A stretch of 64,000 bases of DNA, from assembly GCA_001574975.1 (NCBI GenBank), contig KQ965731.1, positions 310,001-374,000 of the forward strand, read 5' to 3'. Shown piece by piece: positions 1 through 64,000 of the stretch; the first letter of the stretch is position 1, and each line of letters opens with the position of its first letter. Below the pieces are notes generated by a model. It was not told where the DNA came from. It made no database searches and worked only from the letters and a program-made list of their open reading frames with translations. This DNA is from Gonapodya prolifera JEL478 (Eukaryota; Monoblepharomycota; Monoblepharidomycetes; Monoblepharidales; Gonapodyaceae). The translations under genes and the position numbers were made by a program.

Positions 1-3000
1 AGTTGAATCAAAAATCCTGCCATGTTGAGCGAAAAGAAGCGGCGCACTTCGTCATCCGAAAGTGCGTTATGAAGTACGAGCCGACAAATGCCCAAAAGCT
101 GATCTTCAACGAAACCCATCTCATTGTCCGTAATGTGCGACAGTTTAAGATTTCCAAGGATGACCGATATTTCAGTCCTTTCTTTAAGCTTTCTTTTGAA
201 CCATGTAACATCGCCAGTTACAAACTTCGCAGAAATCCACATTTGGAAGAACCGAGAAACGGACAATCCTCCCTTAGTTTCTATCGCGTGTAGAACTTTC
301 AGGAGGGAGCGATTACCGGGAGTCTTTTGCCCGTTCCATAGATGATATAATGTTTCCATGGTGCTGAGAGCATTATCAGGGGAACAATCATGTTCCAGAG
401 CTATTGCGACAGTTTGTATGTACCCGTCTGTCACATTCTCAGTGATTCCATTTGGTGCGTCCTCTCGGCACTCTTTTGCGATGCTCGTAACAAGTGGCCA
501 AGATTTTGCGCTCCCGTCGCTCAAATCCAAGAACGCAATCAATAAGGATGCGACGGCTGAAGATTCCCTAGAATAGCTCAAAAGGTTTAAAAAGGCTTCT
601 TCCGCGTCAGACGGATATTTTGACATCAATTCTTTGAGAAAATCTTCTCTCCTAAGTATGCTTTGTTCGCGCACAATCCCCAAAGCAGATATGAGCTCTC
701 GGCAAAGGACTGCAATGTGATCTTTTGTATCGATTTCAACTCCATGGAATGCCTCGGAGATCAGGGTCACAACGTGTTTGAACAGGCCTGCAACCGATTT
801 GAGCAATGCGTGCCCTCTCTTCAGCATCAATTCGACGATACGAATACAAGGACCAAGACCCAATAGCTTATTTGTCACCGTAACTGTTGATGAGTCCTTG
901 AGGAACTTCGCAGTCATATCAACGAAGGTGGTGGCAACATCACGTTGACATAGCATTGCGAACGTTGTAACAATTTGAGAGCATGATTCCAGAGTATCCA
1001 AGGTTGCTCCATTTGTCCAGCCATCAAGGAAACTGATTTCCCAGCAAAGCGGAACTTTCGAAATAGATAAAATTCCTTGTCGTTCACCTTGCTCCGCATC
1101 ATCTTTCCAGGTTGCTACTGAATCTCCTCGAACATGAATTGTCCCATCCATTACCCCACCTATAACAAGAACTTGATTTTCAAATTCCCATCGGAGAAGG
1201 TCCGGTCGGTGTTCTGTGGTCCATTTTAAGAACAAGTAACGACATTCTCTACTATTCTTCAGAAGGAAACCCATGAAACGTGCGGTAGCACCACAATTTT
1301 GAAGCAATGCAGAAAACAAAGAAGAGGACATCTTCCCAAGCACGGGTGCGAGTAATTCGTCGTTCACCATGACTGAAAAGAATCCCGAACAACCACTTTG
1401 GGCTGCCATTATAAGAATCTTGTGGAATATGCTCTTCTCCACAACCGATACTGTGTGGCACAATACAGATAGCGTAGAATCAAGTTCCACCGAGTGACTT
1501 TCAAATGGTCCAGACGTCCCCAAATATTCCAGTATGTGGATCTTGTCATCTTCAGAAAAAAAATCTGAAAGCTCTTTGCACAGAGTCAACGCCAAATTCC
1601 GCTGGCTTGCGTCCGCATTTTTCGAAGATTTTGCAATCAGGTCTTCAATGAGGTGTACGAGCTTTGTTTTGGCCCCCGTGAAAGATGGAGCAGTGTGTGT
1701 GGTATTGCTTGACGTTGTAATGCGGAGTACATCTGCCAAAGCTTCAATGAAAGATATTGCGTCACACTTTGGGTCTTACGCACAGAACATCGTTTGCTTA
1801 CCAAGAACGAAATCGGCGTCGACGACTCTTTTACGATCGTCCAAGTAGGATGTGATATGCTGGAGCAAGTTTTGGTAGTACGTGTTTATCACGTTCTTGG
1901 ATTTTTCGGTGGATTCAACAATCTCGGTAAATCGAGATGCTGCTTCTGCAACCCCAACTCGCAGAAGTTCTTTAGGTAAACTCTTTGCCGTTGCCGCCAG
2001 CAACTTAAGACAGAACACGGTTATCGAAAGGAGTAACTTGTCATCCTGAGAGCTTCCAATCATCTCCACCAGAGTCGACTTCGCCGTACTAGAGGTAACG
2101 GCATCGGCAGCAGCCACGAGATTCTTGAAAAATGCGAAAGAATGCCCATACGTCTCGCCGTGTCTGATAACATCCGCAGCTTGCTCTGCTCGAGTTTCGG
2201 TTTGTTTCTATTGGGGATGGACAGCGGTGATCCAACTCACTGGTTCTTAAAAGCTCTCGTAATGTGCTCCCAGCTTGCTTGCGCACATGTACTCCATCTA
2301 CCAACGTATTCGGGAACTTCTTCGAATACACCTGTGCGGCATCAATTTCCTTTGCAAGTGTCGTCGGCCAACTAGCATCTTCTCGACGTATCGACGTGAG
2401 CACCTTCGAAACAATTCGTGTACTTGCATAAGTGCGATCCACGATGTCTATAATCAGGAGTCGAACAAAACATGCTATCGCAGAGGCAGATTCAGAGTGT
2501 TGTTGTACCACTGTTGCCGCCCTTTGCACAGCAAGACACATGAGCGGACTGGAACGAGCCACATCGTTTGAGGCTTTTCCGATGTTATGCAGGTTGTCTG
2601 CTTGGCGACCGATGATCTCCTGAACAAGGTCGATACTGCGATAGGGATTCGCGGCAAGCTCGACGACAAGACTGTCCACAAACGCGACCAGCGCCGCTTG
2701 CATCTCGGCATGCCGTTGCGCAGACTCGACAAGCGCTGAGAACAGGCACGGAGCTTCTTCGGGAAACATGTCGAAGGGGAACGAACGGCACACAATCGAG
2801 TTGAGCCCTCTGGCGATGCGGTCACGAAGAGGTGTGCCGACCGGCGCAGTGACCAAGAGCTGCAAGAATGGATGAAGCTGCGAATGACCGTTGGAATCGA
2901 GCGTGCCTTCCCAGAAACGGTAGAAAGATGAGCGAGCGTTCTTGGAATCTTGGTCTCCGACCCCGCTCACCTTCCACCTTGACCCAACCACCGGCGATCA

Positions 3001-5330
3001 CCACCTCCATCGCAGCTTCTACCGTCGCGTTATCTCCCTCGCCACCTCCCCGAAGATCAATCGAGCCAAGAACTCTACCGACGTCCGCCTTCAACTTCCC
3101 CGCTGCGGACTCGCCAAACAGGGCCACGTACCCCGCCAAGCACCGGAGGCTTGCGGCGTGTGCGTGTTTTAAGTCGTCCGTAGCGCCGGGGGCAATCGCC
3201 GCGCGGTGGCACAGCTTGGTGGACGCGAAGAATGTCTGCAAGTCGGGGACGAACCGGGCGCACAGGGCGAGGTACTCGGTCAGCGTCTCGGACGCGTGGC
3301 GGTCGCGAAGCTTGGTGGCGACGGTCTTTGCCTTGTCGATGACGACGCGGATCGCTTCGGCCATGACGAACCGCACCGCGGCGTCGGCATGCACCAAGCC
3401 CCGCACCATGAAGTTCCGCGTCAAGGCGGGAGGGCACGTGTTTGCAACGAGGCTCGACATTGCGGGGATGCGGGATCCTAGAGTGACTGGCAGCTGAACA
3501 AGGCGGACAATGAGGGCCATGGATTGCAGCCATGAGGGAGACACCTGCGGGTCCAACGAGAGCGACGCTGCCGCGGCCGAACCCCAAAAGCTAACCCAAG
3601 GCGTCAGCACTCTGCTCGCGTAATGCTCACGGAGTTCGGCGACACACCTCTCAATGAGCTCCTGCGACTCGCCGAGTATCCCGACGAGCAAATCGCGGTC
3701 GCGATCGGCGCCGACGAGGGGCATGGCCTTTAAGAATCCCGCCAGAATCGGATTGTAGACCTTGTCCTGCGGGTTGAGACACAGCCCGTCGGAGTGGAAA
3801 CAGATCCCGCGGCCGGGTCGTGTTGAGAGGGCTGTCAGGAGCTCGTACGCGGCCAAGGTGCGAGCGTCCGAGCTAGGGCCGGCGGCGACGTGGTGTATCT
3901 AGTGCGTGTTCGACAATGTTGGATTGAGTGCGTTATGAAGCGAGCGAGTGAGTACGCGGAGGGAATACGAACTGCCGAGAGCAATTGGTGGTCAAACACG
4001 CCCACCAAGACGGTTTGGGTCAAGCGAGCATCCGGCCGCAGGAGGACTTCGAGGCCACGCAGTACTTGTACGGCAAGCTAACAGAGTCAGTGTGGTTGTG
4101 ACTGTCTTGTAAGGAAGCACCGGAGAGGAAGGGTGTCGGTCCGAACACACCTCAACGCTGTCACTCTGCAGACCCTTCACAATCGCCGGGATCACGCCCT
4201 TCTTGCCAAAAATGATGCTCTTGACTTGAAGATCGGACGAGGTCACAAGCGCCATTGTGAGAAGAACTGCGGGCTTTCTTAGACGACCTGATTTGACAGA
4301 TGGATTTTATTGGCAAGTTTTGATGACGTCGCCTCGTGTGAAGACCTACTGGAACTCTGCTTCGAACCGACATCTCGAGATTTCGCCCCGCGGTTGGCTG
4401 CGCCAAGAGTGCTTCCCCCAAGCAGTCGAATCAAGACCTTCAGAGTCCACCAAGGTTGATATTGGTATTTGCCTGACGAGTAGAGGCCAACTCACGTCCG
4501 CCGAGAGCAAGCTTGCGATAGTCCTCCCCACCATGTGTCCTCCCCTCTCTGCAAGAGCTTTCAGAATGAGTAGAGCTCCAGTGGCAGTCGCATGATCCGC
4601 TTTGGGTGCAAGGAGATCCACAAAGTCCGCCACGCGTTGCGAGAGGTATCGCACGAGTTGGACAAAGAGCCGCCGTGGACCCAGTGCGTTTGACAGGTGT
4701 GTGAGATAGGCAAGTGTTTTCAAGAGCGGGGCGAAGTGGAGGGAAGAAGCTCCCTTGACGACAACGACACAATTTGATGGAGTGAGGTCGGACACACGCT
4801 CGTTTCCATCTACAGCGACCCATACCTCGCCGAGATCGCCAACCAGCGGGGTCAAGTCCTCTGCGGCCGGTCTGTTCTCGGTGTACGCTCTGTACATGTA
4901 GAAGCGGAGGACATTGTCGCCCTCGAGCACGTCGGACATGTCCCGAATCTCGCTGTCCATCTCGCCAGGCGCCTTGAGCGTGCCGTGATCTCGCTGGATG
5001 GTGTCGTAGAGGGCGCCCAGGGTGTCGGACATGGATTCAAGACCTTTGCGGACCACGTCAGGTCGAGCGAAACGAAATTTCTCGCGATCTGGGAGTGAAA
5101 ATCTCACCTTGAAGGACATTTTTCTCGTCCTTGGACTCCAGAGCGTCCAGCCACAAGCGCTCGTCGCGGGGGACTTGAGCGGCATACATCTTCCGGATCT
5201 CCTCCTCGTCGTCCTTGAGCTGCGCGGCCTTGTGTCCGCCGTGATCGTCCTCCTTCGTCTGCGCACCTTTCTCCACCTTTCTCCTCTTCGCAGGCCTCTC
5301 GCCGTGCCGCGTTGGTCCCATCGCAGACAT
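1..5330 (-). CDS. URB1: URB1/NPA1-like nucleolar pre-ribosomal-associated protein (3' end outside window)
   Basis: Nucleolar scaffold needed for early 60S ribosomal subunit assembly (known for yeast Npa1/Urb1). About 1,600 codons are visible in nine exons; the C-terminus lies beyond position 1. The start at 5330 opens a basic, Lys/Arg-rich segment typical of nucleolar proteins. The family signature is in the exon 2971-3898: GICFHSDG followed by KVYNPILAGFLK, then the helical NPA1 N-terminal repeats. The rest is alpha-helical HEAT/ARM-like. Exons by phase and GT-AG: 5108-5330, 4496-5043, 4350-4437, 4151-4288, 3973-4077, 2971-3898, 2241-2906, 1802-2188, 1-1741; introns 52-78 nt in most cases. 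The frame is open to the window edge, so the gene looks intact. Identity is by recognition of the N-terminal domain; the middle part is too divergent to assign residue by residue. Confidence 0.85.
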
Positions 5331-5472: not shown

Positions 5473-7480
5473 CTACATAAGTCTACGGCGATGTTTCAGC
5501 GCCTTGGCACTCCACCCCTTCGCTGGCTTGGACTCCTCCTCACACGCGTACCCCTGCTGGCCCGTGCCCTTTCCGAGGGGCGAGGTGGACTGGGGAACTT
5601 CCGGGTCCGTCGTGAACGGGTCCGTCGACGACAAGCTCTTGACCCTTCCCAAGAGCACCTCGACTTGCCTATACGCCGCTGTTGGTGCGTATTGCGGCAC
5701 CATGTGCCCGGCAAGGTTCACGCTGACCCATGTGAGGCCGCGCTCCGAGTGTGTCGTTCCAAACACGCCCGACGCGGCAATGCTGGCCAGAGATGGGTCC
5801 TCGTTGTGGTAAGGCACGTAGAAGGGCTCCTCGGGCTTTCGCTCGAACCCGAGCTTGCCGCCCCACGTCATGTTCTGGATGCCCAGGAGGGTTCCGTTGG
5901 ACATGATGATCATGTCAAGCGCGCCGTTAGCAATGATGACGTTCTTGGTCGCTTCGATCACCTTGGGCAGCACGTGGATGTTGGAAGGCAGCGACGTGTC
6001 CGTGGTCAACACCCCGTTTGCGCATTCCTCCCATGTCACGTTGGGGGCGTGGATCGCTGCCTGCACGTCGGCGCGAGCAAAGTAGATCTCCCCTCCTTCG
6101 GGCAAGTACGAGAATGAGCCGGGAAAGCCGAGCGGATCGTACAGCAGCGGGCACGTCGTGGCGACTTGGTAGATGTCGAAGCAAGGGTTCAACCACGAAA
6201 TGGCTTCGAAGGAGTCGTTCAGGATGCTGCCGCACTCGTCTGTCGTGGTGCCGTTGCCGTCCGTGCCAGGGAGCTTGTCCGGTTGCTGGCCGGGTGGCGG
6301 GTATGTGAGGTACTTGTTGACAAAGCTTGTATAGCCACACTTTTTATCCTTTTTGCTGATCTCCTCGCGGAACGTATCGTTGAACGGGAACAATCCGCCC
6401 CAGTAGTCCGTAAACAACTTGAGCGGAATAAGCTAGAAGGAAGTCATGAAACGAATTCATTTGACAGTGTTGGAAAGCTCAACTTTGCGCCCAATTCCGC
6501 GCCAAGAACCTCACCTGCTGAATTTCCGTCTTGGTAATCACGGGGTCGTAGATAAGCATACCGGAAAGTTTGAAGTATGTCGGGTTCTTCTCGCTGAGCA
6601 TCGCGCTGGCGATATAGGGACAGTACAGCCCGGCGTACGACTCGCCCGAAATGTAGATCTCGTATCCGTGCAGCCCAAAGGTGTTGACAAAGTTCTTCCA
6701 AAACCCCTTGAATTGCTCTTTTGTCGCCAAGAAAAACTTTTGTAAGTATCGCTCATCGTTTCCGCATGAGTGGGAAGGTGCACATACCTGCAATTTCCTC
6801 CTCACTGGTTGCGTTCGGAGTTCCCTGAGTGAACCCAGTTCCGATGGGCTGCTCAACCCAGACCGTGTGAACCAGGTTTGTCCAGCTCCACCTGTTGGTG
6901 GCAGATCATTTCAGGACTGCACAGGCCTATTGAGTTTGCAAGGCAACCAAGAACCCACCTATTCGGGAATGGCTTCAAGGTGCCATACTGCCACAAGAAG
7001 GGGCCGTTCTCCTGGAAAAGCCCTTCAAACGACGAGCAGCCAGGACCTCCGTTGAGCCATATCATTATCTGCTTGGTTGAGTTTGGGTTTTGGGAGGGGA
7101 AGAACCAGAAAAACAACTGGTTGGGATCCTTGGGGTCGCTCGAGATGGGCATGAGACCCGAGTACGACTCCCCGACATCGAAATCGACCAGGGGGATTGC
7201 AGACCCGTTGACGGCGAATTCTTGAGAATTAGGTTAAGGTCTCTGTGAGTGCACAAGGTGGCACGCGTTCACGATTCCCACGAGGCTCACTTGTCGTGTT
7301 TGCGTTCAAAAAGAGCGGTGCCGACGCGCTCTGCGTCGCGTTGACGCTTGTCAAGCGCTGCCCATGGAGTTTCGACGGCAAGGCCGCAGGTGGGCGTAGC
7401 AGGAAAGAGCCCTCCTTCCTCGCGTCGGATCGCGCGGCGACCAGGGCGATGAGCGCAAGGAGCGCGGCCGCGAGTCGCAT
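5473..7480 (-). CDS. Secreted serine carboxypeptidase (peptidase family S10)
   Basis: Removes C-terminal residues from peptides in the secretory pathway, vacuole or outside the cell. Five exons with matching phases (7291-7480, 6959-7220, 6788-6891, 6515-6717, 5473-6432) give 572 residues, normal for the family. The start gives a classic signal peptide ([18 protein letters not shown]). Family landmarks are in order: NGGPGCSS (oxyanion region), [24 protein letters not shown] with the nucleophile Ser, an Asp in NGALDMII and the catalytic His in [10 protein letters not shown]. Several N-x-S/T sites fit a glycosylated secreted enzyme. The C-terminus past the His is longer than usual and ends in a Lys/Arg-rich stretch (KALKHRRRL). 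Its stop is only 142 nt upstream of the URB1 start on the same strand, a very tight spacing for two eukaryotic genes. Confidence 0.93.
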
Positions 7481-8149
7481 GTGGATCGCTGGAATGTGGA
7501 GGATGGATCCACGGATGGGTGCCGTGCGATGTCACCCCCCCCGAGAACCCTTAACCCCAGTCTTTTCTCCCTGTCCCTCGAATTTTCCAAAATCCGATCG
7601 TGTGCCTCCCCCACCTCGATGAGCAAACGATGACTCCACGCTCTCCACTCGCCCGAACATGAAACATGTGTGAAGTCGGCATTCGTTCATTCGCCGTTAC
7701 GGAGGGCCGGAATGTGGGAGTGTTCGCTGTGCGAGGCGCCCTTTTTCCCTTGCATTTCGCGTTGCGATAAGCGTAGGATATTAACACTTTATTCACGACC
7801 CAGGTGCAACGCCGCATAAACAATAAATTATATCGATGTGTAAATGGGTGACGGTGGGAGTTTGGTGGTGGTGATGTAATCCCAAAAATTTAGGGTCTTG
7901 ATACCCGTCTCATGCAGCCTCATCCGGCGGCGGCTCCTGTGTGGTCGAGTCAAAAGAACCCCACCGTCCCAAGCCCACTTTCCGCTCTGCCTGGAGATGC
8001 GCAGCAGACTTGCTCCCCTGTGCGAGGACGAGATCGAGGCCAGGAATCGCACCGTACGTTTGCGTCAGCCGTGCTGCCATCGAGTGGCTCATCAACACCA
8101 CACTCCCCGTGGGTGGACGTTGTCGTCGCTTCGATTCCGTCGGAGGAGG

Positions 8150-8275
8150 AGGAGACCGAGGCCTAAGCGCGGTAGCGCTACCCGAGGCTATCGAGCGAAG
8201 CGAAACATCCGCCGGAGGCGAATGATTCACTCGAGGCCTATGCGCGTTTGAGTCCGCCGGAGGCGAATACATTTC
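8150..8275. repeat. GNA-triloop hairpin repeat cluster A
   Basis: Contains CCGAGGCCTAAGCGCG (shared with the cluster near 49.38 kb), an AGCGC-GGTA-GCGCT hairpin, one GCGAAGC (8195-8201) and two exact copies of CCGCCGGAGGCGAAT (8209-8223 and 8254-8268). The last unit recurs exactly at 55619-55633. Stems are 3-5 bp with GAA or GGA loops. Confidence 0.8.
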
Positions 8276-49090: not shown

Positions 49091-52000
49091 ATGTCGGAAA
49101 GGCGGGACACCTACTTCGACCTGTCTGCGTTTCTGCCCGGCGGAGGGGCAAGTGCCGGGACGAAGGGCGATGGGAAGAAGGACGCGAAGGACACCGGCGC
49201 GGGGGGAGACTCGGGCGACAACTGGATGCGCGCAAAGGTGCCCATGTCTTTTGGCGGGGGCGGAGGGTCCTGGTCGGTGAGTGGTCGGCGCGGGATGGGG
49301 GATGGGGGGAGGGGGGGAGAGAGACGGAACGAACGAGGCGAAGCGGATTGAAGTGGAGTCGAGCCCCGCGAGCGCAGCGAGCCCGAGGCCTAAGCGCGCA
49401 GCGCTGACCGAGGAGTCTGCCGGAGGCGAGTGCCGCGCGAAGCGGCATGTGCAGATTCAAGACAGAAGTTGCTGGGTGCCTGCAAATGAGCGACTGCGGG
49501 GTCCATCAAGGCGTGGAGACGCCGATTTTGCGTTCCTTTAGTCCTAAGCTAAGTATTCTTCCCCCTCCAGTTCAGCGCCACTGCCAAATCTTCCCCCACC
49601 GTCACCAACCCTCCTTCAGCACCTCCCTCTGCTCCCGCTCCCGCCCCGTCTCCCGACCCATCCCCCGCCCCACCAAAGAAACCCTCTGGTCCCCAGCGCA
49701 CCGCTCCCGGCGACGCGGTGCGCGCTGCCACCGTCTCTTCGGATTCTACAGCAGGACCAACACGCATACCTGGCCCGACGCGGACTCCTGGACCCACCCG
49801 CACTCCGGGCCCTTCTCGCGCCCCGGGTCCTCGTCGACCTATGACTCCCCCCGGCGACGACGAACCCGACGTGGAGCCATCGCCTCCGCCTTCCCATCAA
49901 CCCTCCAACGGTGGTGGTCCTGCCCGCGAGGACGACGACGACGACGCGCCCGACGTGGGTCCGGTACCTACAGCCAGCAATGGGAGTGGCGGCGGTGGGG
50001 CGAATTCGGACTCCGACTTGGACTCGGATGAGGATGGGGAGGATGAAGATGCGGATGTGGATGCTGAGGACGGTCCCATCCCACCACCCGTGGAGTCGGA
50101 AGCGGCCTTGCGGCATCACACAAAGGTGAGTGTGGTGTAAGGCGCGATGTGGCGCGTAAGAGGTGTTGCGTACATTGGAATCATATGGACCACCATATCG
50201 GTTCGACATGTTCAGTGTAGTTGCTAACTCTTCCCGTCCCATCACTTTCACTCCCGCAGCTCGTGTCTGCCCTTAGCATAGACCCCTCGGGCGCGCGATT
50301 TGTCACGGGCTCGTACGATTACAACGTAAACATCCACGACTTTGCCGGCATGGACGCGCGGCTGAGGCCGTTCAGGTCATTCGAGGGCGTCGAAGGGTGT
50401 CCGGTGCGTTGGCTTGCGAGTCTCGCGTGTGTCGGGGGAACAGTCGTGCTGACCTTGTGGCTCGCTTATCTTTCCTTTCCTTTCCAATTTCCACACCCAC
50501 CCGACACGCCCTCTGTTCCCCCACAATAAAACATTGGGTGCCGGACGCACGCCCAGGTCCGTGACTTGGCGTGGTCGATATCGGGCGACAGGTTCCTGAT
50601 GGCGACCACGGCGTTTTTCCCCAAACTGTTCGATAGGGACGGCAACATGGTGTGAGTTTGTCTCGTGGTTCGCGCGACGTTTGAGATTCTAACTGCGCTG
50701 TTCCTACACCTCAACCCCACCGCCACGCATCCACACAATACCAACCGCACCAGCGAAGAATTTATCAAAGGCGACCAATACCTCGTGGACCCAAAACGGA
50801 CCAAAGGGCACACGGCGCCACTGAGCTCCATCTCATGGCACCCGACGGACCGCAACCGCTTCCTCACGGCAGCAGGGGACTCGACGGTACGGATCTGGGA
50901 CGTGACCAACAAGCGGTCCCACCTCGAGGTCATCCCGCTCAAGTCGCGCCGGCGGGGCACGTCGGGCGCGCAGAGCAGCGCCGGGGTGCGCACCGCCGTC
51001 ACGGCCGCGAGGTTCTCCAGGGACGCGTCCAAGATTGCGTGCATTGCGCAGGATGGGGCCCTGCGGGTTTATTCCGCAAAGGGTCCCTTTGTGAACCCCA
51101 CCGTGACCTGGGACGAGGCGCACGAACCCGGGACGGAGACGGCGGGGCTGCTGTGGCGGGCCGACGATAAGTCGATTGTGACGAGGGGGTACGACGGCAT
51201 GGTCAAGATTTGGGACCTGAGGGCGACAAAGGGACCTGTGGCAGCCCGGGGTGGGTTCTCCGCGATGGCGCCGGAGTCTGACGTGTGTCTCAGTCCGGAC
51301 GAGAGGCTCATTGTGGTCGGAACGGCCGGGGAGCGTGGCGGTGGCGGGCGGAAGGCGGAGCCCGCCGCCCTGGTGTTTTTGGACGCGCAGGACCTCTCCG
51401 TGCGCAAGGTGGCCGAGGTTGTGGCGGGGGGCAACATCACGTCGGACATTCCCGCGGGCGTCGTGCGGGTCACGTGGCACCCGAGGCTGAATCAAGTGTT
51501 TTGTTCGACAGGGGGTGGGGATGTTGGAGTTCGCGTGTTTTACGGCAAGGGGTCCATGCGTGGGGCACTGCAGTCGGTCGGGAGGGCGGTCAGGAAAAAG
51601 AGGGTGGACGAGATGGAGGGCTTGCTCATGGGGTGGGTATGCGGTTGTTGGTTCCACAAGTGCCCTTTCTTGACTTATCTCGGTTGAATGGCAGGCCGAT
51701 CCTCACCCCGGCAGCTACTCTGCGTGGTGAAGTGACGAGTGTGAAGCGGAAGCGGGAGAAGGACCACGCGACGCGGTTGGCCGTGAGAAAGCCTGGTGCG
51801 TTGTTTTGGTTTTCAGACCTCTTGGTTTCCACTGAATACTGAACAATCCGTACTTGCTTTCTGCCGTGTTACAGAGGCGCCGGCGACTGGGCAGGGCAAG
51901 GCTGGAAAGATCGGTTACTCACTGCACGAACAGCTTCTCAAACCGTACATCAAGCAGGACCTTCGCCGCCTCGACGATCCCCGGGAAGCCTTTTTGCGGC

Positions 52001-54969: not shown

Positions 54970-57938
54970 TCACGACGCAAACAAATTCCTCCCTCCCTTC
55001 TCCCTCTCCCTCTCTGCCTTCTCCTTGCTCCGTTCCGCAGCCTCCCTCTCTCTCGCTTGCACCGCATACCTCCTCACAAGCTCTGCGCACCGCGTTTTCC
55101 CCTGCGCCTCCGCCATCGCCGCAGCGTCCAGACCGTGCTCTGTCATGCTAAAGGGCGACACGCCGCCCCCGCCACGGGTTGGCGCGTCGAGGAGGATCTT
55201 GCAGGCGCGGTCGTGGCCTGGGGGTGAGGGATCGTTATCAGAATGCAGAGTCGAGGCTAGCCCAAGACCCGGTAGCGCCGACCGAGGCTGTCCGCCCGAA
55301 GCAAAATGCACCGCGAAGCGTATTCCTCCACCGGAGGCGAATGATCTGCGCGGAGCGCGAATGATACAGCGCACAGCGCAAATTCCCACCGGAGCCGAGT
55401 GATCCATAAAGCAAATACTCCGCGAAGCACAAATACTCTCGCGAAGCGAGCCACGAGGCCCAAGCACGAAGCGCTGACCGAGACGACTGTCCCACGTGGA
55501 GCGTATTCCTCCCCCGGAGGCCAGTGATCCGCGTAGCAAAAACTCCGCGAAGCGAGACGTACGCCGGAGGGCGTATCCACCAGGAAGCGGAATAATCTTG
55601 CGGAGCGTACCGAGACGTCCGCCGGAGGCGAATCACTCGCGGAGCGATATCGATTGCACACGTACAACTCCCATGTGTTTCCCATCCGAGGCCGTTGCCG
55701 TGGCTTCATCGGACGTCCGACCCCAATTTTTTTCCCAGGCAATCTATAGTTTTACAGACCAAACGCACCTGCCAAGCACGCGATCATTAAGCTAGTGTAC
55801 GTCTTGCCCTGCCCGCACTTATCGGTCGGCTTTGCCCCGCGGCGGAGGAGCGTCTGGAGCACTACGGGGCTGCACACGGGGGAGGAGAGGAACCGGTCGA
55901 GTGGGGTGTAACCTGAACCACGCGAACGAAAGGGTGGGCGAATGTATTACATCCAAATCGCGCAAGCAAGAAAACGCGTGAGTTGATTGTACGACACCCG
56001 AACCACCACGCACTCCCTCCACTCACCTCTCCGATCCTCTCTCGCTACGTCCGCGCCGCAATTCAACATCTCCTCGACGATATCTTTCCCCTGGACGTTC
56101 TCCCCGGCGTTCTCGAGCGCGCAGTTGAGCGGGGTGGACCCGGCGTTGTCGGTGTGCTGGAGAAGGTCGCCGCGGATCGCCGAGCAGGAAGGGTGTCGCA
56201 GGAGAAGCCGGACGAGAGGGAGGTGGAGGGACGTCGCGGCGAGCATGAGAGGGGATTTCCCGCCTTTCATGGGGGAACGGACGACGGTTGATGTCAAAAA
56301 GCGACATGTCGAATGTTCGCGTGAAAAAAATGTATCGTAAAGCGGAGATCCAATTCTTCAAGCACGCACTCTTGCTTGCCGCAATCGGGCTGGCTCCACT
56401 GTCGAGCAACCACCTCGCCACATCTTCCTTCCCCAAATGACACGAACTCATCAAGAGCGTTCGGCCGTATCGATCGCGGATCTAGAAAAGGTCAAGACAC
56501 GGCACGGCACGGTCATAAATGCAGCTCAATCTGCTCTTGCTCTTGCTCTGCTGCAGAGGTTCAACGTACTTCGGTGTCAAATGTGTCGCCCATCACGGAC
56601 GCCAATTCCTGCGCGAGTCTGAGGTCTCCCTCGGCAACCGCGGTACATAGTTGATCGGCGAGGCGCGAATTGGCAGGCTGTGAGGCTTAAAGGGATGAAG
56701 TAGAGCACAAGTCAGAAGGAATGGAGGGAACGAATCACACAAGAAATTCCGATCATAATTGGCCATGCTGTCACTGCTGCTTTCCAAGGCAGCATCAGCA
56801 TAACCTCCAACATTGCTGTTTTTACCTCCAACACAATTCGTTTCCGCTTGTTCCACGTACCTCCCACAGCAACTTCAATTTCGCTTTCCCCCTCCGCGAG
56901 TCCCGTGATCCCAATCTTCCACCCATCCGTAGTCTCTCCCGGGGGACCTCTGACGCGTAAGCGAAAGCTGTACACCGTGCCTGGGAGCAACCCCGATGCG
57001 AGAAAGAACGACGCGCGACCGGTGTAGATGGTGAGCCAGGCGGAGTGCGGGTCGGAGGACGTCGAGAGCGTGTTGGGCAGTGATGGCGGGTTCGTGTCAA
57101 ACGAGGGTTGTGAGACGTCGCCTAAATTGTCTGACGTGTCGGTCCGCGAGATGGAACTCGAGTCAGCGTCGGAATTGAAAGACAATCCCGTGTCGGAGTT
57201 GACGGGCGTGGTGACGGCTGTTGGCTCTGTTCGGGAGAGTTGGTAGGCAAAGTTTGGCGGCAATGGACACTCGGACGCTTGTGGCGATTGCTTCAGCTTT
57301 GTACCAGGTGGACCCCATTGAAGTTCCACCGTTGATTGTCCGACGAGGCCGACTCTCAGACGAGGAATTTTCGCAAGAGATGTCGAGCTCAAGTTATCAT
57401 TGAGTTGCGTAGATTCATTTTCATTTGACGGCTCAGAGTCCGCCTGACTGCCTGCTATGGGCGAGACAGTGCCAGGTGCCGGCAACGACGGCAGCCGCAC
57501 AAACTCCGGATCAATCAATGTTTTTTCCGACGTTGGAGTAGGAGCAATCGCGGAATTCGGTTGTCGCACAGACCGTGCGCGTGGTGGAGGCTGTGACGAC
57601 CCGAACGATGCTGAAACGGAAACCCTTGGGCGATCCTGTGATGATGTAGCGGGCATGTGAGGGGCAGAGGTGTTGTCCAATCGAGTGTTGTACAATGTTG
57701 AGCCCGCGACACCATTGTCAACAGGTGGCGCTCGCTCCCTGTCTTCCTCCTTTTCTCGCTTTTCCACATCCTGCTCTCGCGCAGATGCGCGTCTGCTTAT
57801 CGAAGGTACAGGCGGCTGTCCGAAGCTACCGATTGGACCGTTGATGGGCGTCAAATGAGTGGGTGGAACAACTGGACGTGATCCATGGAGGTTTGATGGT
57901 GAAGCTGGAACTGATTTTCGCCGGGGTGTCTGCTGCAT
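54970..57938 (-). CDS. FANK1: FANK1-like fibronectin III and ankyrin-repeat protein
   Basis: FN3 domain followed by ankyrin repeats, the architecture of FANK1, a protein of flagellated cells in animals (testis). Start at 57938 (MQQTPRRKSVPASPSN), then a long Ser/Pro disordered part. The FN3 part is LRVGLVGQSTVELQWGPPG ... ASGLLPGTVYSFRLRVRGP. Ankyrin units: LADQLCTAVAEGDLRLAQEL, DRYGRTLLMSSCHLGKED, GKSPLMLAATSLHLPLVRLL, NAGSTPLNCALENAGENV, TSLMIACLAGHDRACKILL. The C-terminus is a Glu/Lys/Arg helix, stop at 54970. The last intron (55218-55768, 551 nt) is about ten times the local norm and is filled with hairpin repeats. The disordered N-terminus and a gap between FN3 and ankyrin exons (56.3-56.7 kb) leave some exon borders open. 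Confidence 0.75.
55258..55652. repeat. GNA-triloop hairpin repeat cluster D (in last intron of FANK1-like gene)
   Basis: Largest cluster, about 395 nt. GCGAAGC at 55313, 55422, 55441 and 55547; GCGGAGC at 55350, 55600 and 55639; GCGTAGC at 55531; CCGGAGG at 55331, 55514, 55564 and 55622. Longer stems occur, such as CTCGC-GAA-GCGAG (55438-55450). CCGCCGGAGGCGAAT (55619-55633) is identical to cluster A, and ACGAGGCCCAAGCACGAAGC (from 55453) is a variant of the A/C unit. Confidence 0.9.
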
Positions 57939-58480
57939 CCTGGTAGGAGATGGGAGATGGGAGATGAGATGAGTTTTTAGGCAAAATGAAATTGAACTTT
58001 ACTTTGATTGAACCTCCCCCCAGCCCCGGTCTCTGGCCATTGTCCGAAACAATGCTAACGAGCGCTTCATGAAACGCAGCTGTGTCAAAAGACCTTCAAA
58101 AGAAAATCGGACGGGACGGATGTATTTCGCGACGATAAATAATGTGAATAAGGCAGGCTGTAGCTAACGTAGTACTGACAAACTCACTCCAAAAGAAGTA
58201 CGACAGTGCTAAGGAGGTATGTACTGCCGCAGTCCGCTCGGGCCATGGCTCAGCGTCCCTCGAGCTCCGTATCAGAGGTTGCTTTGAGCGTGAAACAATG
58301 TTGTGTGGTGGTCCGGGATGGCGGACTTCCAAGAGGAAGAGATGTGTAGATGTAATTGTAGTGGGTCGACGCCCATGAGACACAGAAATAGGTGACACCA
58401 TCCCTCGCAGCTTGCCCACGCCCCACCATCATCTCAGTATGCTGTCCACCTCAGATATGTAAGATTTTTCTCCTTCACTT
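57939..58480. other. Upstream region of FANK1-like gene, no supported gene
   Basis: Normal CpG content like the rest of the left part. Small minus-strand frames near 58.1-58.43 kb have no recognisable domain. CpG depletion begins at its right end. Confidence 0.4.
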
Positions 58481-60991
58481 CGGGTTCCATCATTGAATGA
58501 ATAATACAATGGACTTTGGTCAAGCTCTCCTTCCACTTCCAGGTAGCATTTGGTTGGCAAGGTCTGTCTCATGCCATCAATTCTGGTTCTCAAATTTCAA
58601 CCACATCACTACATTACTGATCACTTGTATGTACCTTCATGAGTAGAACTGGAGTCTCCCTTTATGCTGATGCTTAGAGCAGGAGAACTAATTTAAACAA
58701 GTGGGCCATATAATCTGGTAAGCTCACTTTCTTGCAGTCTGTTCATCATCTTTCCTTGTTTGGCCTGTTTTGGGTGACAAGCACCTGTTACAACTGTCTC
58801 CTAAGCCCCCAACACTGTGGTAGAACTGGTACTCAGTCAGCCTCCTGGGCTCTGTCCAAAGGATAAGTATCAGTGTGGTACTAGAGAGGTGCAGACAGAG
58901 AGAGGTGCAAGTAGTGAGGTTATGATGTATTGGTCTAGCTAAATGAGGCATTGCAAGCAAATATAAGTCTACGTTTTGGCTACCCTAATTGCCCCATCCT
59001 ACCCAAAAGACTTACCAGTGGACTAGCCTTGCAAGCGTTAGTTCCACTACAACACTATTAATTATTTAATTACATTGAGGACATTAAGTTTTCACCCTGA
59101 ATTCTCTATTGCACCTTTTGGGGACATCTTGTTTGATTGATAACTGGGAAAGTGGGAGAATTTGGGTTCCCCAATTGTGACTGGCAGATTTAAATTCCCC
59201 AGCTAAAACTCTTGCTTGACAAAAGGGATTATGATATCATGTTACACATTCTCTTGATTTTGAAACAAAACAAACAAAAAAATCTGAAAAGCACAGGTAC
59301 AGTATTTACTGTTTTGCCACTTGCTGTTGTAGCAACATTTGTTCTAGTTTTGGGACCAGAAGTTGGAGTGCCTTGGCATCAGTGTGCATCCAGAGAGAAT
59401 GAGGAAAATCCCCATTACTGCTTCCTCTTGAGTTCTCACATGAAAATTGTTTGAGATTATCATAAGTTGCATATCTCAAAAATTCCACCTGCAGGTGTGC
59501 ATCTGGACGGCTAAAAAGCAGAGACAAATGTTTCACCAATATCACTACAGCAGTTCCAGAAAAGGTTGTCCAATGCTGACTGGCTGCAGTTTTTTTTAAA
59601 TTGAAGTCCCAAATTATTCCTGTCCCTTCCTGCACTGAAAGGCCCCCAAATCTCACGTCTCCAACCTTCCACCAACTTATTGCAGACAGCCCAGGGGGTA
59701 CGAGACCACAGATGGGGTTGGGGGAATTTTGACAATTTTTGGAGAAAAAAAGGCTCCAATCAGGGCAGTGGACAACCTTTCACAAAACAGCTGTGACATT
59801 GGTTGGCTAGCAATCTTATTTGTTCAGTTGATTTTTATGATCTTTCTATGATGTGCAGCAATTGAATTGAATTGAGACTTTTTCTGTGCTGTATTCAATT
59901 TCCACATCACCAAATTATGCTGCAACTTCAGAGCTTTGCATTTGATTGCAGCAAGCATATCACCATTAGCATCACATGTCAATAAATTGGATGGAAAAAG
60001 AGAAAAGAGGTTATTCCTGATTTACAGAATGAGAGAAAATATAAAGAGGATTCTTGATAAGGCGTTGAACCAAGTTGGAAAACAAGCTTAATTATTTCCA
60101 TTCCTTCTTTTCTGAAGAAGGCACAGCAGGTGTTAAACCATTCTCATCAACTCACCCCCTTGTTTGTGTGGCTGTGACAAACATTCTCATGTTTGAGAAC
60201 CACTCCATTTTGTCCTGCACCACATTGAAAAGAAAATTCCACTAGAGCATTGACTTATTGACTCACTCCTTGAAGCTAAAAGATCTTTTTGGCTGTGGCT
60301 ATACACAGACTAGTCCAGATAAAGGGGTTTGTCACTACTATGTACTTTGCACCAAATAATTAATATGTGATCATTAATTTGGATGGAAAGTGATTTCTAA
60401 CACTAAAAATACCACAACTCTTAAATTGTCAGCAAGTGTCAAAAAAAACTATAAATTGTACCAACCATTTAAACATTATGGACAGAATTTGGAGCTAATT
60501 GTCATGACACAGTATTTAATTGTTTACTTTATGAGTTGGGAATGTTGACTCTTGTCCCAAACTAATTTTGCAATCCTCTTTGAGTGGGGGGCAACAATTG
60601 TTTATAGAGAAAAATTTCTAGAAAATTTTGAAACCATCACCAATGACTCCATTTTTAAAGGTTTGCATCCAGTGGGTTGCATACAAGCCAAGCCAAGCCC
60701 ATTCTACTTGACTCTGGTCAGAGTGCTCACCCCCTTTTGGAAACCTACACCAATACTTTTTAAATACTTGTCTTGCTTTGTCAACCTTATGAAATAGAGG
60801 TGAGATAAGTAAAGGCTCTGGTCAGCACTGCCTCCCCCCCCCCTGGCTGCTCCACCAACACTGCAGTCACTTGTTCTGGTCAAGGGCAAATAGAAAGCTA
60901 CCCATAAGCCAACACCCTTTGAAATATATGTTTCAATGGGAAAGTCTGTCTTGGGCCACATGAAAATGACCACATTTTTTGTTGTGCTGGA

Positions 60992-61500
60992 TTATTGGGT
61001 GGTGGGGACAGAAATTGTGGTGTTCTGATCAATTGAGGGCTGGCCAAACTTTTTCTTGGCCCATGCCACACCTGCAGTATCACTAAATAACTTGTATGAA
61101 CTATGGGCTGGGATGTTATGTAAATTTGTGACCATCAACTGCTCTCGTCCCATTGCTGGACAGGTAAAAGGAGTTTTTGAATCTGTCTCTGCTCCATCAT
61201 CATGGAGACTCTTGGGATTTGACTTCAAAGTGTCAAACACTGAGATGTCACTATGCCCTCCTTGTTTGTGAGGAATTCAATGGATTCTGCTTGATGGACA
61301 CCACTGCCTGGGATTGTAATAAATATTTCAGTGCCAGCACTTTCTCTACTAGCTGCTAGGGGTGTTCTGGACTGGAGCATTAAAGAGCTTTTTTTTTGCC
61401 ATGTTTTGCCATTCAGGACAGACTGCGGAGTGCTTGCAGGGTTTGGGGGCAAGAGCAAGAGCAAAATCCATCCACTCCACACGCATGTCACATTTCACTT
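60992..61500 (-). pseudogene. Possible decayed hAT-type transposase fragment
   Basis: Minus-strand reading gives LMVTNLHNIPAHSSYKLFSD followed by WAKKKFGQPSID, which resembles the hAT dimerisation region (IPA-x-S ... FSDAG ... K-x-R ... LSID). Frames are interrupted, and the upstream piece (FITIPGSGVHQAESIEFLTN) is not recognisable. The match is to a short motif only. Confidence 0.3.
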
Positions 61501-63164
61501 TTACACTAAATCATGCAGTGTAGGTGAACACAATAGAAGACTCAAAATATGAGTTGGAGTTGTAGTAGCAAGGAACTGGTTGTGCACATTGAAAAACCTG
61601 TGGTCAACCACCTTTCCCTTGTAAAAAGACAGCAATCATGCTCCTTCCACTGCAAGGATGTCATGGAAGCCATTGCAGCGCAATGCTGCAATGGTGCAAT
61701 GGATATTTGGGCTGACAGAGATGGATTTTGCAGGAACAACCAACTTTGATTCCGCAACACCAACACCATTCAAGTATGCAATTTATGTTATTGTAAACCA
61801 AAAATTCAAATTTATTCTACTCAACAAGGTTAGTTTTTACCTGGATCTCTCTCATATTGTTGAAATTGTTGTAGATATTGTACACTACCATAAATAAATG
61901 CTGTAAAACAGCCAAAAGACATTGGGCTTGTCGGCTTGCCAAGCCAAGCCCAAAACCCTCTGTCATGCCAGAGCCAAGCTTTGAACCAATCAAAACGTAG
62001 CCTGGACTTGGCTTGACTGGTGCTTGGCTCAAGGGCTCAGCAAGTTGACTCAACTTGTGTCCAACCCTTGTTGTGCCCTGTCTGCAAGGCAAAGATGCAA
62101 AACACAGATGCTGTTGCCAGATGGACTTAAAAAATAATAATGATGATTAACTTGATTCTAGTTTTTTTTTGACTGCTTGGAGAGGAAAATATTCACTTGT
62201 TAGAGCATCTGATGCCTTGAAATGGAGGTTAAGTAATCCCCATAAATCTCACTCAAAGTTTTACGTGGCCACTGATATAATGCAAAAACAAGCAATCGTT
62301 TCAACTGAGGAATTTGAAGTTTTGCCCCCTTTGGTGCATTACAAATATTCTTGAACTTCAGTTTTTTGGATGAAATAGTAAAATTTTAGTTATACGTTTG
62401 TTTAGGTGCAATCCCTGTTGGCAGACTATCACCAATGGATTGTACAGCGCTTATCAGAAATGGCCTCAGTTTTCAACTGCAACTGCATCTTAGTCAACAC
62501 ACCGCAGTTCAAAGCTTCTTCTGTGTATGGTGTGAGCTCCTCACCAATCATATTTGGTGGTCTCTCCTTCTTAATTAAGGGGACAGGAGCACAGTGTGTG
62601 TTCAGTGTTCCCATCCTGGACAGACAGGACGAGAACCGCTGGAGAGTTACGCCCATCTATCTAGGACTCAGTCTTTCCACAATCTAACAGGATGTGTTGC
62701 TTCAAGTGGGACTGTCTCCCTTGGCCAAAAAACGAGCACCTAAATATTTGAAACATCAAAAGAGATCTCCAATTTCTCTCAATTCTTCAAAACCATGAAA
62801 ACATTGAAAAGATGAAATCTAGAGAAATATTTCACATGTACCTTTTGCAAATTTATGCTTGGCTAAAAAGCATTGGGGCACTCAAAATTACATCAGCTTG
62901 ATATCAACACATCATAGACTTAATCTGAGCCTGCAGCAGAATAATAAAGAGTTTTATATGTTTTTACCAAGAGGAATAGCAGAATTTTTCTATGGAAAGG
63001 TTGACTGATAATTTATCTGAAGAAACCTCTACATGGATTAGTGAGAAGTGCACTTGCAGTGACTTGAAAGAAATTGATGGGAAAGAGATGCAAAACCCAG
63101 TTTTCATGCAGGATTTCAATCTGAAAAGTTGGAAGAAAGATCTGCAAAAAATCAAAGCAGATAC

Positions 63165-63510
63165 ACTTTAAGAATTCTGGAAGCATTTGGCAAAATGGAA
63201 GGTATTCCTAAGAATACCATTGAATTTTAGCCAATGAATGGAAGTAATTTAGCAATCAAAACCAGAGAATATGGATCCTGAATACATAAAAAGTTACCAT
63301 ACAGGCAATTTTGTAATATGCTTTGGTTGGCAGAAGGAACTCAACAAGAAATGCTTCTTAAGCTTCAAGCATATTGGCATGTTATCAGACAAATTTGGTC
63401 CTGAGAACTGGATGCAAGCTAAACACCTATTTGGATATCTTTGTGGAGCATTGATTATGGAATTATGTATGCCTCCAGATACTGTGCTTGCAAGGGGAGT
63501 GTTGCTCAGG
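63165..63510 (+). pseudogene. Ty1/copia reverse transcriptase C-terminal remnant
   Basis: Frameshifted and stop-broken reading shows the copia order: SRYTLRILEAFGKMEG (like RYIxxILxRFGM), then PMN, KLPYRQFCNMLWLAEGT (like LPYRQAVGSLMWLAEGT), LSDKFGPENWMQAKHLFGYL in another frame, and SIDYGIMYA. These are the tail of the RT domain just before RNase H. At least two frame changes and several stops show the copy is dead. Confidence 0.8.
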
Positions 63511-63730
63511 ATAAGAAATCAAGTATGAAAGGAAGAAGATTAATGTATGGAGGGGATTATTTACATTTATGGCAACCTCAACTTCTCAACTCATCTTCAA
63601 AAAAGTTTTATTTGTGCATGATAAATTTAAATCCACAAGGAGTGTGTATCCAACAATGCATACACAATCAATACATGCTACCCGACCTAGGGGTGCTCCG
63701 TGAGACCTGTGTGCTGCAGGACCACGATCA

Positions 63731-64000
63731 TGTATGAGTGACACCAAGCATACATTGTAGATGGGACATGTAGTCTCACCTGCAGGACCACGACGCCAAA
63801 CGTGGGCTGTGCCCTGCAGGGGAGAATATATATACTAGGGAACTGTTCCATGCTGTGCCACCTAAGGTGCCTTGCCTTAACAGCACTGTGCTACACACTC
63901 AGCCCCTATCCGTGCTGTGCCACACTCCACCCCTCACAGCCATGTAAGTGGCTGTCACCCAGCAGGCTGGGTGACACTACACCCCTCACTTTGCTCAGAG
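63731..64000 (+). repeat. LTR-like sequence downstream of the copia remnant (runs off the window)
   Basis: Begins with TG, has a TATA-like AATATATATACTAGGG (63825-63840), a direct repeat CTGCAGGACCACGA (63715 and 63780) and two GTGCTGTGCCAC-like repeats. A perfect hairpin GTCACCCAG-CAGG-CTGGGTGAC lies at 63954-63975, preceded by ACAGCCA-TGTAAG-TGGCTGT. Borders cannot be fixed because the end and any second LTR lie outside the window. Confidence 0.45.

Follow-up and report, generated by a model that had tools for sequence, protein, structure and literature searches.

A dispersed family of hairpin-module strings, probably mostly intronic, in the genome of Gonapodya prolifera

The genome of Gonapodya prolifera JEL478 contains a dispersed repeat family whose members are strings of hairpin modules, formed on one strand and mostly capped by GNA or GNNA loops. 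The explanation that we favour, with slightly better than even confidence, is that of a non-coding, non-autonomous, intron-resident hairpin repeat whose copies would be made from the coding strand in single-stranded form and would decay afterwards. We see no sign that the host benefits.

Hairpin clusters in the window

The plus strand of the window (the whole 64,000-nucleotide stretch that was analysed) contains 23 copies of the heptamer GCGNAGC. Eight of these lie at 55313-55645, a span of 333 nt, four lie at 49338-49443 (two with GAA and two with GCA loops) and one lies at 8195. These numbers reproduce those of an earlier sequence-only reading, which had counted eight heptamers in about 335 nt, four at 49.34-49.44 kb and one at 8195, and its chance rate of about one per 4 kb is close to the expected density that we compute, roughly one per 3.8 kb per strand. 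All four bases are represented at the loop middle, as had been stated, and the paired stem variants that had been listed were all located: AGCGC-GCA-GCGCT at 49393, CTCGC-GAA-GCGAG at 55438 and CGCC-GGA-GGCG at 55620, 8210 and 8255. The constancy of the G..A and of the C-G closing pair is partly inherent in the heptamer used as the search pattern. Four C-GNA-G hairpins with at least four Watson-Crick pairs occur in the 55.3-kb cluster, three of them at GCGNAGC heptamers, and five of the eight heptamers there have stems of just 2-3 pairs.

Over both strands the window holds 42 copies against 33.4 ± 5.3 in shuffles, 6 of 100 of which reach 42 or more, so the heptamer by itself shows no clear enrichment. 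The unusual feature is its clustering: 0.087 copies are expected on one strand of 335 nt, and the densest cluster in 200 shuffles held four. It had been proposed that genome-wide heptamer counts at composition-matched expectation would speak against a family. The plain heptamer in the window does lie near expectation, but extended motifs lie far above their controls genome-wide. Composition and chance, which the near-expected window count would favour, are ruled out as the origin of the clustering by the shuffles and by the genome-wide counts of module A, its open-stem form and modules E and H, all with zero controls, and we consider them exceedingly improbable as an account of the family. The parts located in the window are as follows.

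55258..55652, plus strand: degenerate hairpin-string element (main copy) with 8 GCGNAGC; at least 52 genome-wide matches including itself
55331..55392, plus strand: B-C-D run of the main copy, profile match E 1.4e-16; consensus CGCC-GGA-GGCG, GCGC-GNA-GCGC, GCGC-GNA-GCGC, plus linkers
55454..55482, plus strand: module A, its loop of three bases (GAA), profile match E 1.4e-4
55620..55647, plus strand: final two mini-hairpins, CGCC-GGA-GGCG and TCGC-GGA-GCGA, from hairpin scan and profile search
55218..55768, minus strand: putative host intron of an ankyrin-like gene, donor GTGCGT at 55768 and acceptor CAG ending at 55218, picked by eye
49277..49570, plus strand: host intron (GTGAGT...CAG) of a plus-strand gene with a sense element, splice score 28.8 sense against 17.9 antisense
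49323..49361, plus strand: module H, GACGGAACGAACGAGGCGAAGC...AGTGGAGTCG, a long hairpin whose stem has GGA and GA steps and whose loop is GAA; one of 15 copies genome-wide that match exact end anchors (none in the reversed control)
49369..49381, plus strand: short F core CGAGC-GCA-GCGAG, from the short-F pattern search
49383..49413, plus strand: module A with a GCA loop, profile match E 8.8e-7
49419..49450, plus strand: modules B and C, GCCGGAGGC and CCGCGCGAAGCGG, from a weak profile match (E 0.064) and the sequence
8156..8270, plus strand: third element, with module A, GCGAAGC and two CGCC-GGA-GGCG hairpins, from heptamer, hairpin and profile scans

The main copy is tentatively antisense to the putative minus-strand intron at 55218..55768. 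A splice-model script placed the same donor with a different acceptor and scored antisense at 12.7 against 11.2 for sense, and the exons joined around this intron gave only sub-threshold ankyrin matches in Pfam (best E 7.6e-4). Elsewhere in the window, a serine-carboxypeptidase-like gene with a signal-peptide-like start (by eye) lies at 6479-7531 on the minus strand, and G+C content falls to 0.41-0.43 at 58001-64000 against 0.45-0.66 in the remainder.

Module architecture and genome-wide distribution

Read by eye along the GNA-bearing strand, elements tend to begin 5′ with a larger module (E, F, G or H), followed by module A and then by strings of modules B-C-D, with linkers in common that include AATGATC and ATATTCCC. 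It had been proposed that the family rests on structure, not sequence, but the common linkers make it a sequence family too. Module E reads GC-GA-GGTCT-GGA-GTGC-GAA-GCAC-GGA-AGACC-GA-GC and module F reads AGTCC-GA-CC-GGA-GC-GA-GC-AAC-GC-GA-GC-GGA-GG-GA-GGACT. Stems of the larger modules are split by symmetric purine steps, GA/GA and GGA/GGA, and since the same GA or GGA step is read 5′ to 3′ on both arms, the reverse strand is unable to fold alike. We assume sheared-pair geometry for these steps. The mini-hairpins described earlier are real, but they form only part of this wider set with GNNA loops and GA/GA and GGA/GGA steps.

Counts in 72 element clusters bear out several of these features. 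GA/GA steps number 16 against 0.75 in 20 shuffles, GGA/GGA steps 12 against 0.1 and GNA-capped hairpins of at least seven pairs 28 against 2.8. Hairpins of this length with any cap total 81 against 63.6, with 78 in the highest shuffle, and the hairpin scan shows no enrichment of GNNA caps (3 against 2.1). With their flanks, the 72 clusters contain GCGNAGC 216 times and its reverse complement GCTNCGC four times. Among the 94 of 100 listed module A copies that have one of three standard lengths, 25 have three-base loops, 23 of them GNA, and 69 have four-base loops, 54 of them GNNA; the third base is a pyrimidine in 42 of these 54. RNA GNRA loops require a purine at this position and DNA GNNA loops do not. 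The pyrimidines would thus favour DNA over RNA only weakly, since module A copies have common ancestry. At the level of sequence, the modules match the GNA and sheared-GA hairpin motif, and sheared pairs are predicted.

The ends of the elements are not uniform. Among the loci viewed, 5′ ends open with any of several modules, 3′ ends are variable, and no common inverted termini of the kind found in MITEs were seen by eye. At loci L032 and L057, the inner part of the short-F hairpin is inverted between intact GTCC/GGAC arms; these two inversions may be a single event, given their identical surroundings. On contig C1 (G000), the two strands each carry a copy of module A with an unusual cap, at 569522-569552 and 570742-570772; these copies are identical and 1.2 kb apart.

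The assembly searched comprises 47.6 Mb in 207 contigs. Used as a query, the main cluster matched at least 52 places including itself, with 40 of 116 candidates scored. Module A (31 nt, at most two mismatches) was found at 199 places (96 and 103 by strand) and its open-stem form at 195 (103 and 92), module E at 36 (19 and 17) and module H at 15 (10 and 5), each with no match in the reversed control. Module G was found at 19 places against three in the control and the short-F core at 232 (136 and 96) against 27 (16 and 11). The short-F stem with any loop gave 746 matches against 364, so about half of these would arise by chance. Between elements, 2908 of 2909 high-scoring segment pairs are on the same strand. 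Identity over at least 100 nt averages 76.5% and reaches 91% at most, so no recent copying event was caught.

Sequence was retrieved as roughly 1-1.5 kb around 39 places, as 3 kb (once 2.3 kb) at 20 places, about every fifth of 100 listed module A matches, and as ten arbitrary 6-kb stretches. Element profiles detected three loci in the window and, across the ten arbitrary stretches (60 kb), a single weak one (E 0.05 and 0.18). We estimate about 1,500 loci per genome (95% range roughly 400-3,900), a figure biased upward because the window was selected for containing the finding; the arbitrary stretches alone give about 800 (range 20-4,400). Two exact element patterns had no matches in viral contigs, and one pattern had a single match among prokaryote genomes, in a coding-like region of Nioella where no array was visible by eye; this match was taken as chance. 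There was no COX1 match in the assembly, and mitochondrial DNA therefore lay outside the genome-wide search. An IFT57 gene scores above its family cut-off at G000:C16:184254-185425; its presence marks a flagellated lineage, in keeping with a zoosporic fungus.

Probable intron location and module turnover

Among the 70 elements with both flanks, a GTRAGT donor lies within 160 nt upstream on the element's own strand in 36, in the mirrored antisense place in six and in two control places in none and four, against a background of 10.1%. Since this excess of sense donors comes without an antisense excess, most elements are probably intronic and in sense. The earlier claim of a dispersed and often intronic GNA mini-hairpin family is supported by these donors and by the 199 module A places against a control of zero. 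A looser donor pattern occurs in 51 of the same 70 elements in sense and 24 in antisense, with controls of 5 and 12, and the antisense count makes some antisense introns possible. Elements picked by module pattern rather than by similarity to the main copy behave alike, with strict donors for 14 of 25 in sense and 2 of 25 in antisense. The distance from strict donor to element is 7-107 nt in the 36 elements, as measured from the nearest donor and hence biased to short values. Judged by eye, 18 of 22 elements that start with F or E begin at most 26 nt from the GT.

A home-made splice-model search preferred sense for 55 of 72 clusters and antisense for 12, with no model for five, and all seven confident models are in sense. 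In locus sets chosen by hand and not as a census, Pfam domains span the joined exons at eight of nine sense loci, and ten further sense loci gave matches above cut-off at three, only below it at four and none at three. Ten of the 12 antisense-preferring models were checked and yielded one domain, MAGE at L033; L016, another of the antisense-preferring loci, gave a sub-threshold permease match when examined in sense. Elements at L033 and, tentatively, the main copy in the window look antisense. Coding-strand assignment left 68 of 72 clusters without a result on both flanks and was superseded by the donor, splice and Pfam tests, and a home-made coding-model intron census, which gave just 12 doubtful introns, was left out of the results. 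The sense bias may alternatively come from selection against antisense copies. An antisense E module holds CTCCAG, which could serve as a 3′ splice site.

Some host introns have features of their own. A short-chain dehydrogenase gene (L032:1-1051) has two successive introns with a sense element in each, the second identified by eye, and the first interrupts the NN|AG motif. The introns at L042, L044, L053, L056 and L058 have long G-runs between the likely 5′ splice site and the first module, and often C/T-rich tracts before the acceptor that could pair with them.

Duplicate genes were observed to differ by whole modules or blocks, through either gain or loss. The host protein of L014 on contig C107 has a duplicate on contig C55 with 80-91% DNA identity in aligned blocks. 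Their introns start at the same position but align poorly; by eye, the C55 intron has a degenerate E hairpin right after the donor that is absent in C107, and two A modules where C107 has four. A second gene family occupies eight places and has element-bearing introns at the same position on contigs C73, C30 and C78. Over the final 219 nt of the exon, C30 and C78 are 84% identical, and they have the start of the string in common, but next to its B modules C78 has roughly 100 nt of extra sequence, holding about five hairpins, that C30 lacks. The paralogue on contig C61 has, at the matching position, an 81-nt intron without an element (acceptor picked by eye), which could reflect earlier loss. 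The members on contigs C122 and C55 have donors but no module string within the 430 nt shown, where C122 has a single isolated GCGGAGC, and the remaining two members have no clear donor at the intron position.

These comparisons bear on two alternatives to mobile hairpin repeats. If the repeat were the body of introns that multiplied, as in introner-like elements, the sense bias and the short donor distances, including the 18 of 22 F or E starts close to the GT, would follow directly. We nevertheless regard this as unlikely, given the C61 intron without an element, the two further members that have donors but no string, the antisense elements apparently inside introns (L033 and tentatively the window) and intron ends that, beyond the modules, are not visibly alike by eye among the loci shown. 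The second alternative, to which we also assign a low probability, is that founding copies grew locally by slippage and recombination, without any mobile step and with only rare gene-to-gene exchange. An internal duplication at L020 and the extra block in C78 fit such growth, but module A by itself is present at some 200 places spread over many contigs, and the retrieved loci have modules and linkers in common, which needs spread between genes; local growth leaves the sense bias unexplained.

Pairing, proposed mode of spread and relation to known systems

Evidence for pairing is found between module types. In 72 of 100 listed short-F copies the pair immediately outside the core is Watson-Crick, where shuffled partners give 28.1, and all four pair types are observed. 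The arms pair at three or more positions in 16 copies against 4.3; with identical arm pairs counted once, 11 do so against 3.6 (largest shuffle 10). Module A has three interchangeable caps, and in its listed copies paired double changes occur 10 times where about 2.3 would be expected, although one-sided stem changes, at 67, are far more numerous. Three of 36 E copies have both arms changed yet still paired (two ATGC/GCAT and one GTAC/GTAC for GTGC/GCAC), and other E copies have one-sided arm changes. Within the aligned B, C and D slots of 62 copies, by contrast, double changes number 0, 0 and 2 against 0.2, 0.6 and 2.0 expected, and these copies decay without compensation. The stem covariation that had been suggested as a check is therefore present between module types and absent inside these slots.

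Folding of 72 elements, trimmed at 330 nt, was compared with dinucleotide shuffles using RNA and DNA parameters on both strands. Stability did not exceed that of the shuffles: mean z was -0.3 sense and -0.5 antisense with RNA parameters and -0.16 and -0.28 with DNA parameters, only three to seven of the 72 fell under z -2, and the main copy in the window likewise folded no better than its shuffles. The lack of slot covariation together with the lack of extra stability argues against structure kept after insertion, and the suggestion that the elements are kept because of their structure is not supported in that sense. The companion suggestion, of propagation because of structure, may hold: arms covary between types, and duplicates differ by whole hairpins or hairpin blocks. 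It seems that pairing shaped the types of module but does not hold single copies once they are inserted. A structured intron RNA retained for a host function, in splicing or as a processed RNA, could account for the sense bias, yet we judge it very unlikely: slot covariation and excess stability are absent, the third base of GNNA loops is a pyrimidine in 42 of 54, unlike in RNA-type GNRA loops, and an Rfam scan of 10 loci yielded, at E values up to 1, just two matches, each far below its gathering score.

For the preferred explanation, a mobile repeat that then decays, the template for new copies would be the folded single-stranded form of the coding strand, its putative source being either intron RNA that is copied back or the strand that a transcription bubble or R-loop displaces. 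Copies would then join other introns, and later recombination among repeated modules would lengthen or shorten the strings. A narrower version, of which we are doubtful, has the repeat spread as folded single-stranded DNA, with purine-rich hairpins forming on the transcription-displaced strand near intron starts and being copied or joined, as whole hairpins, into other open strands of this kind. The GA and GGA steps would here let one strand fold while keeping the duplex free of perfect palindromes, and the inverted inner parts of the F hairpins at L032 and L057 could be traces of the folded DNA form.

We place the family among the hairpin-unit repeats, as a variant of the kind that mitochondrial GC clusters represent. 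The GC clusters of yeast mitochondrial DNA (PMC4478555) are short, palindromic, G+C-rich dispersed units that merge and shuffle; they are mitochondrial, lie mostly between genes, and in the commonest type have short direct repeats on either side. The present elements resemble them in their interchangeable modules and in gain or loss in duplicates, but lie on large contigs among nuclear-type protein genes with GT-AG introns, a setting that is not mitochondrial, and are often intronic and sense-biased, with G-A steps that lead to one-strand folding. An Allomyces paper on double-hairpin elements is reportedly Paquin 2000. Fungal mitochondrial double-hairpin elements (PMC10085805) are likewise small and regarded as mobile, also in Allomyces, but are mitochondrial, have two hairpins by name rather than long strings and carry no link to spliceosomal introns. 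Introners and introner-like elements are also repeats within introns of many genes and create introns (PMC9860276, PMC4457414), whereas here one matching intron has no element and elements lie inside introns. Introner families would have near-identical introns; here modules are common across genes at no more than 91% identity over at least 100 nt. We file the family apart from introners because one gene family leans against intron creation and common intron ends are not demonstrated. DNA minihairpins of the d(GCGAAGC) type (PMC6479982, and Yoshizawa 1997 as cited there) likewise have GNA loops, which typically contain a sheared G-A pair, but they are a biophysical motif and not a genomic repeat family. 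A literature search that covered few subscription papers named no nuclear family of this kind.

The element is a natural, genome-wide record of a structural rule, that of GNA and GNNA loops and of GA and GGA steps, which is familiar mainly from test-tube DNA. Because some duplicate genes differ by entire hairpins, the process can be tested directly inside one genome. If the sense bias stems from insertion, transcription would expose introns to folded-single-strand copying, a route for intron growth.
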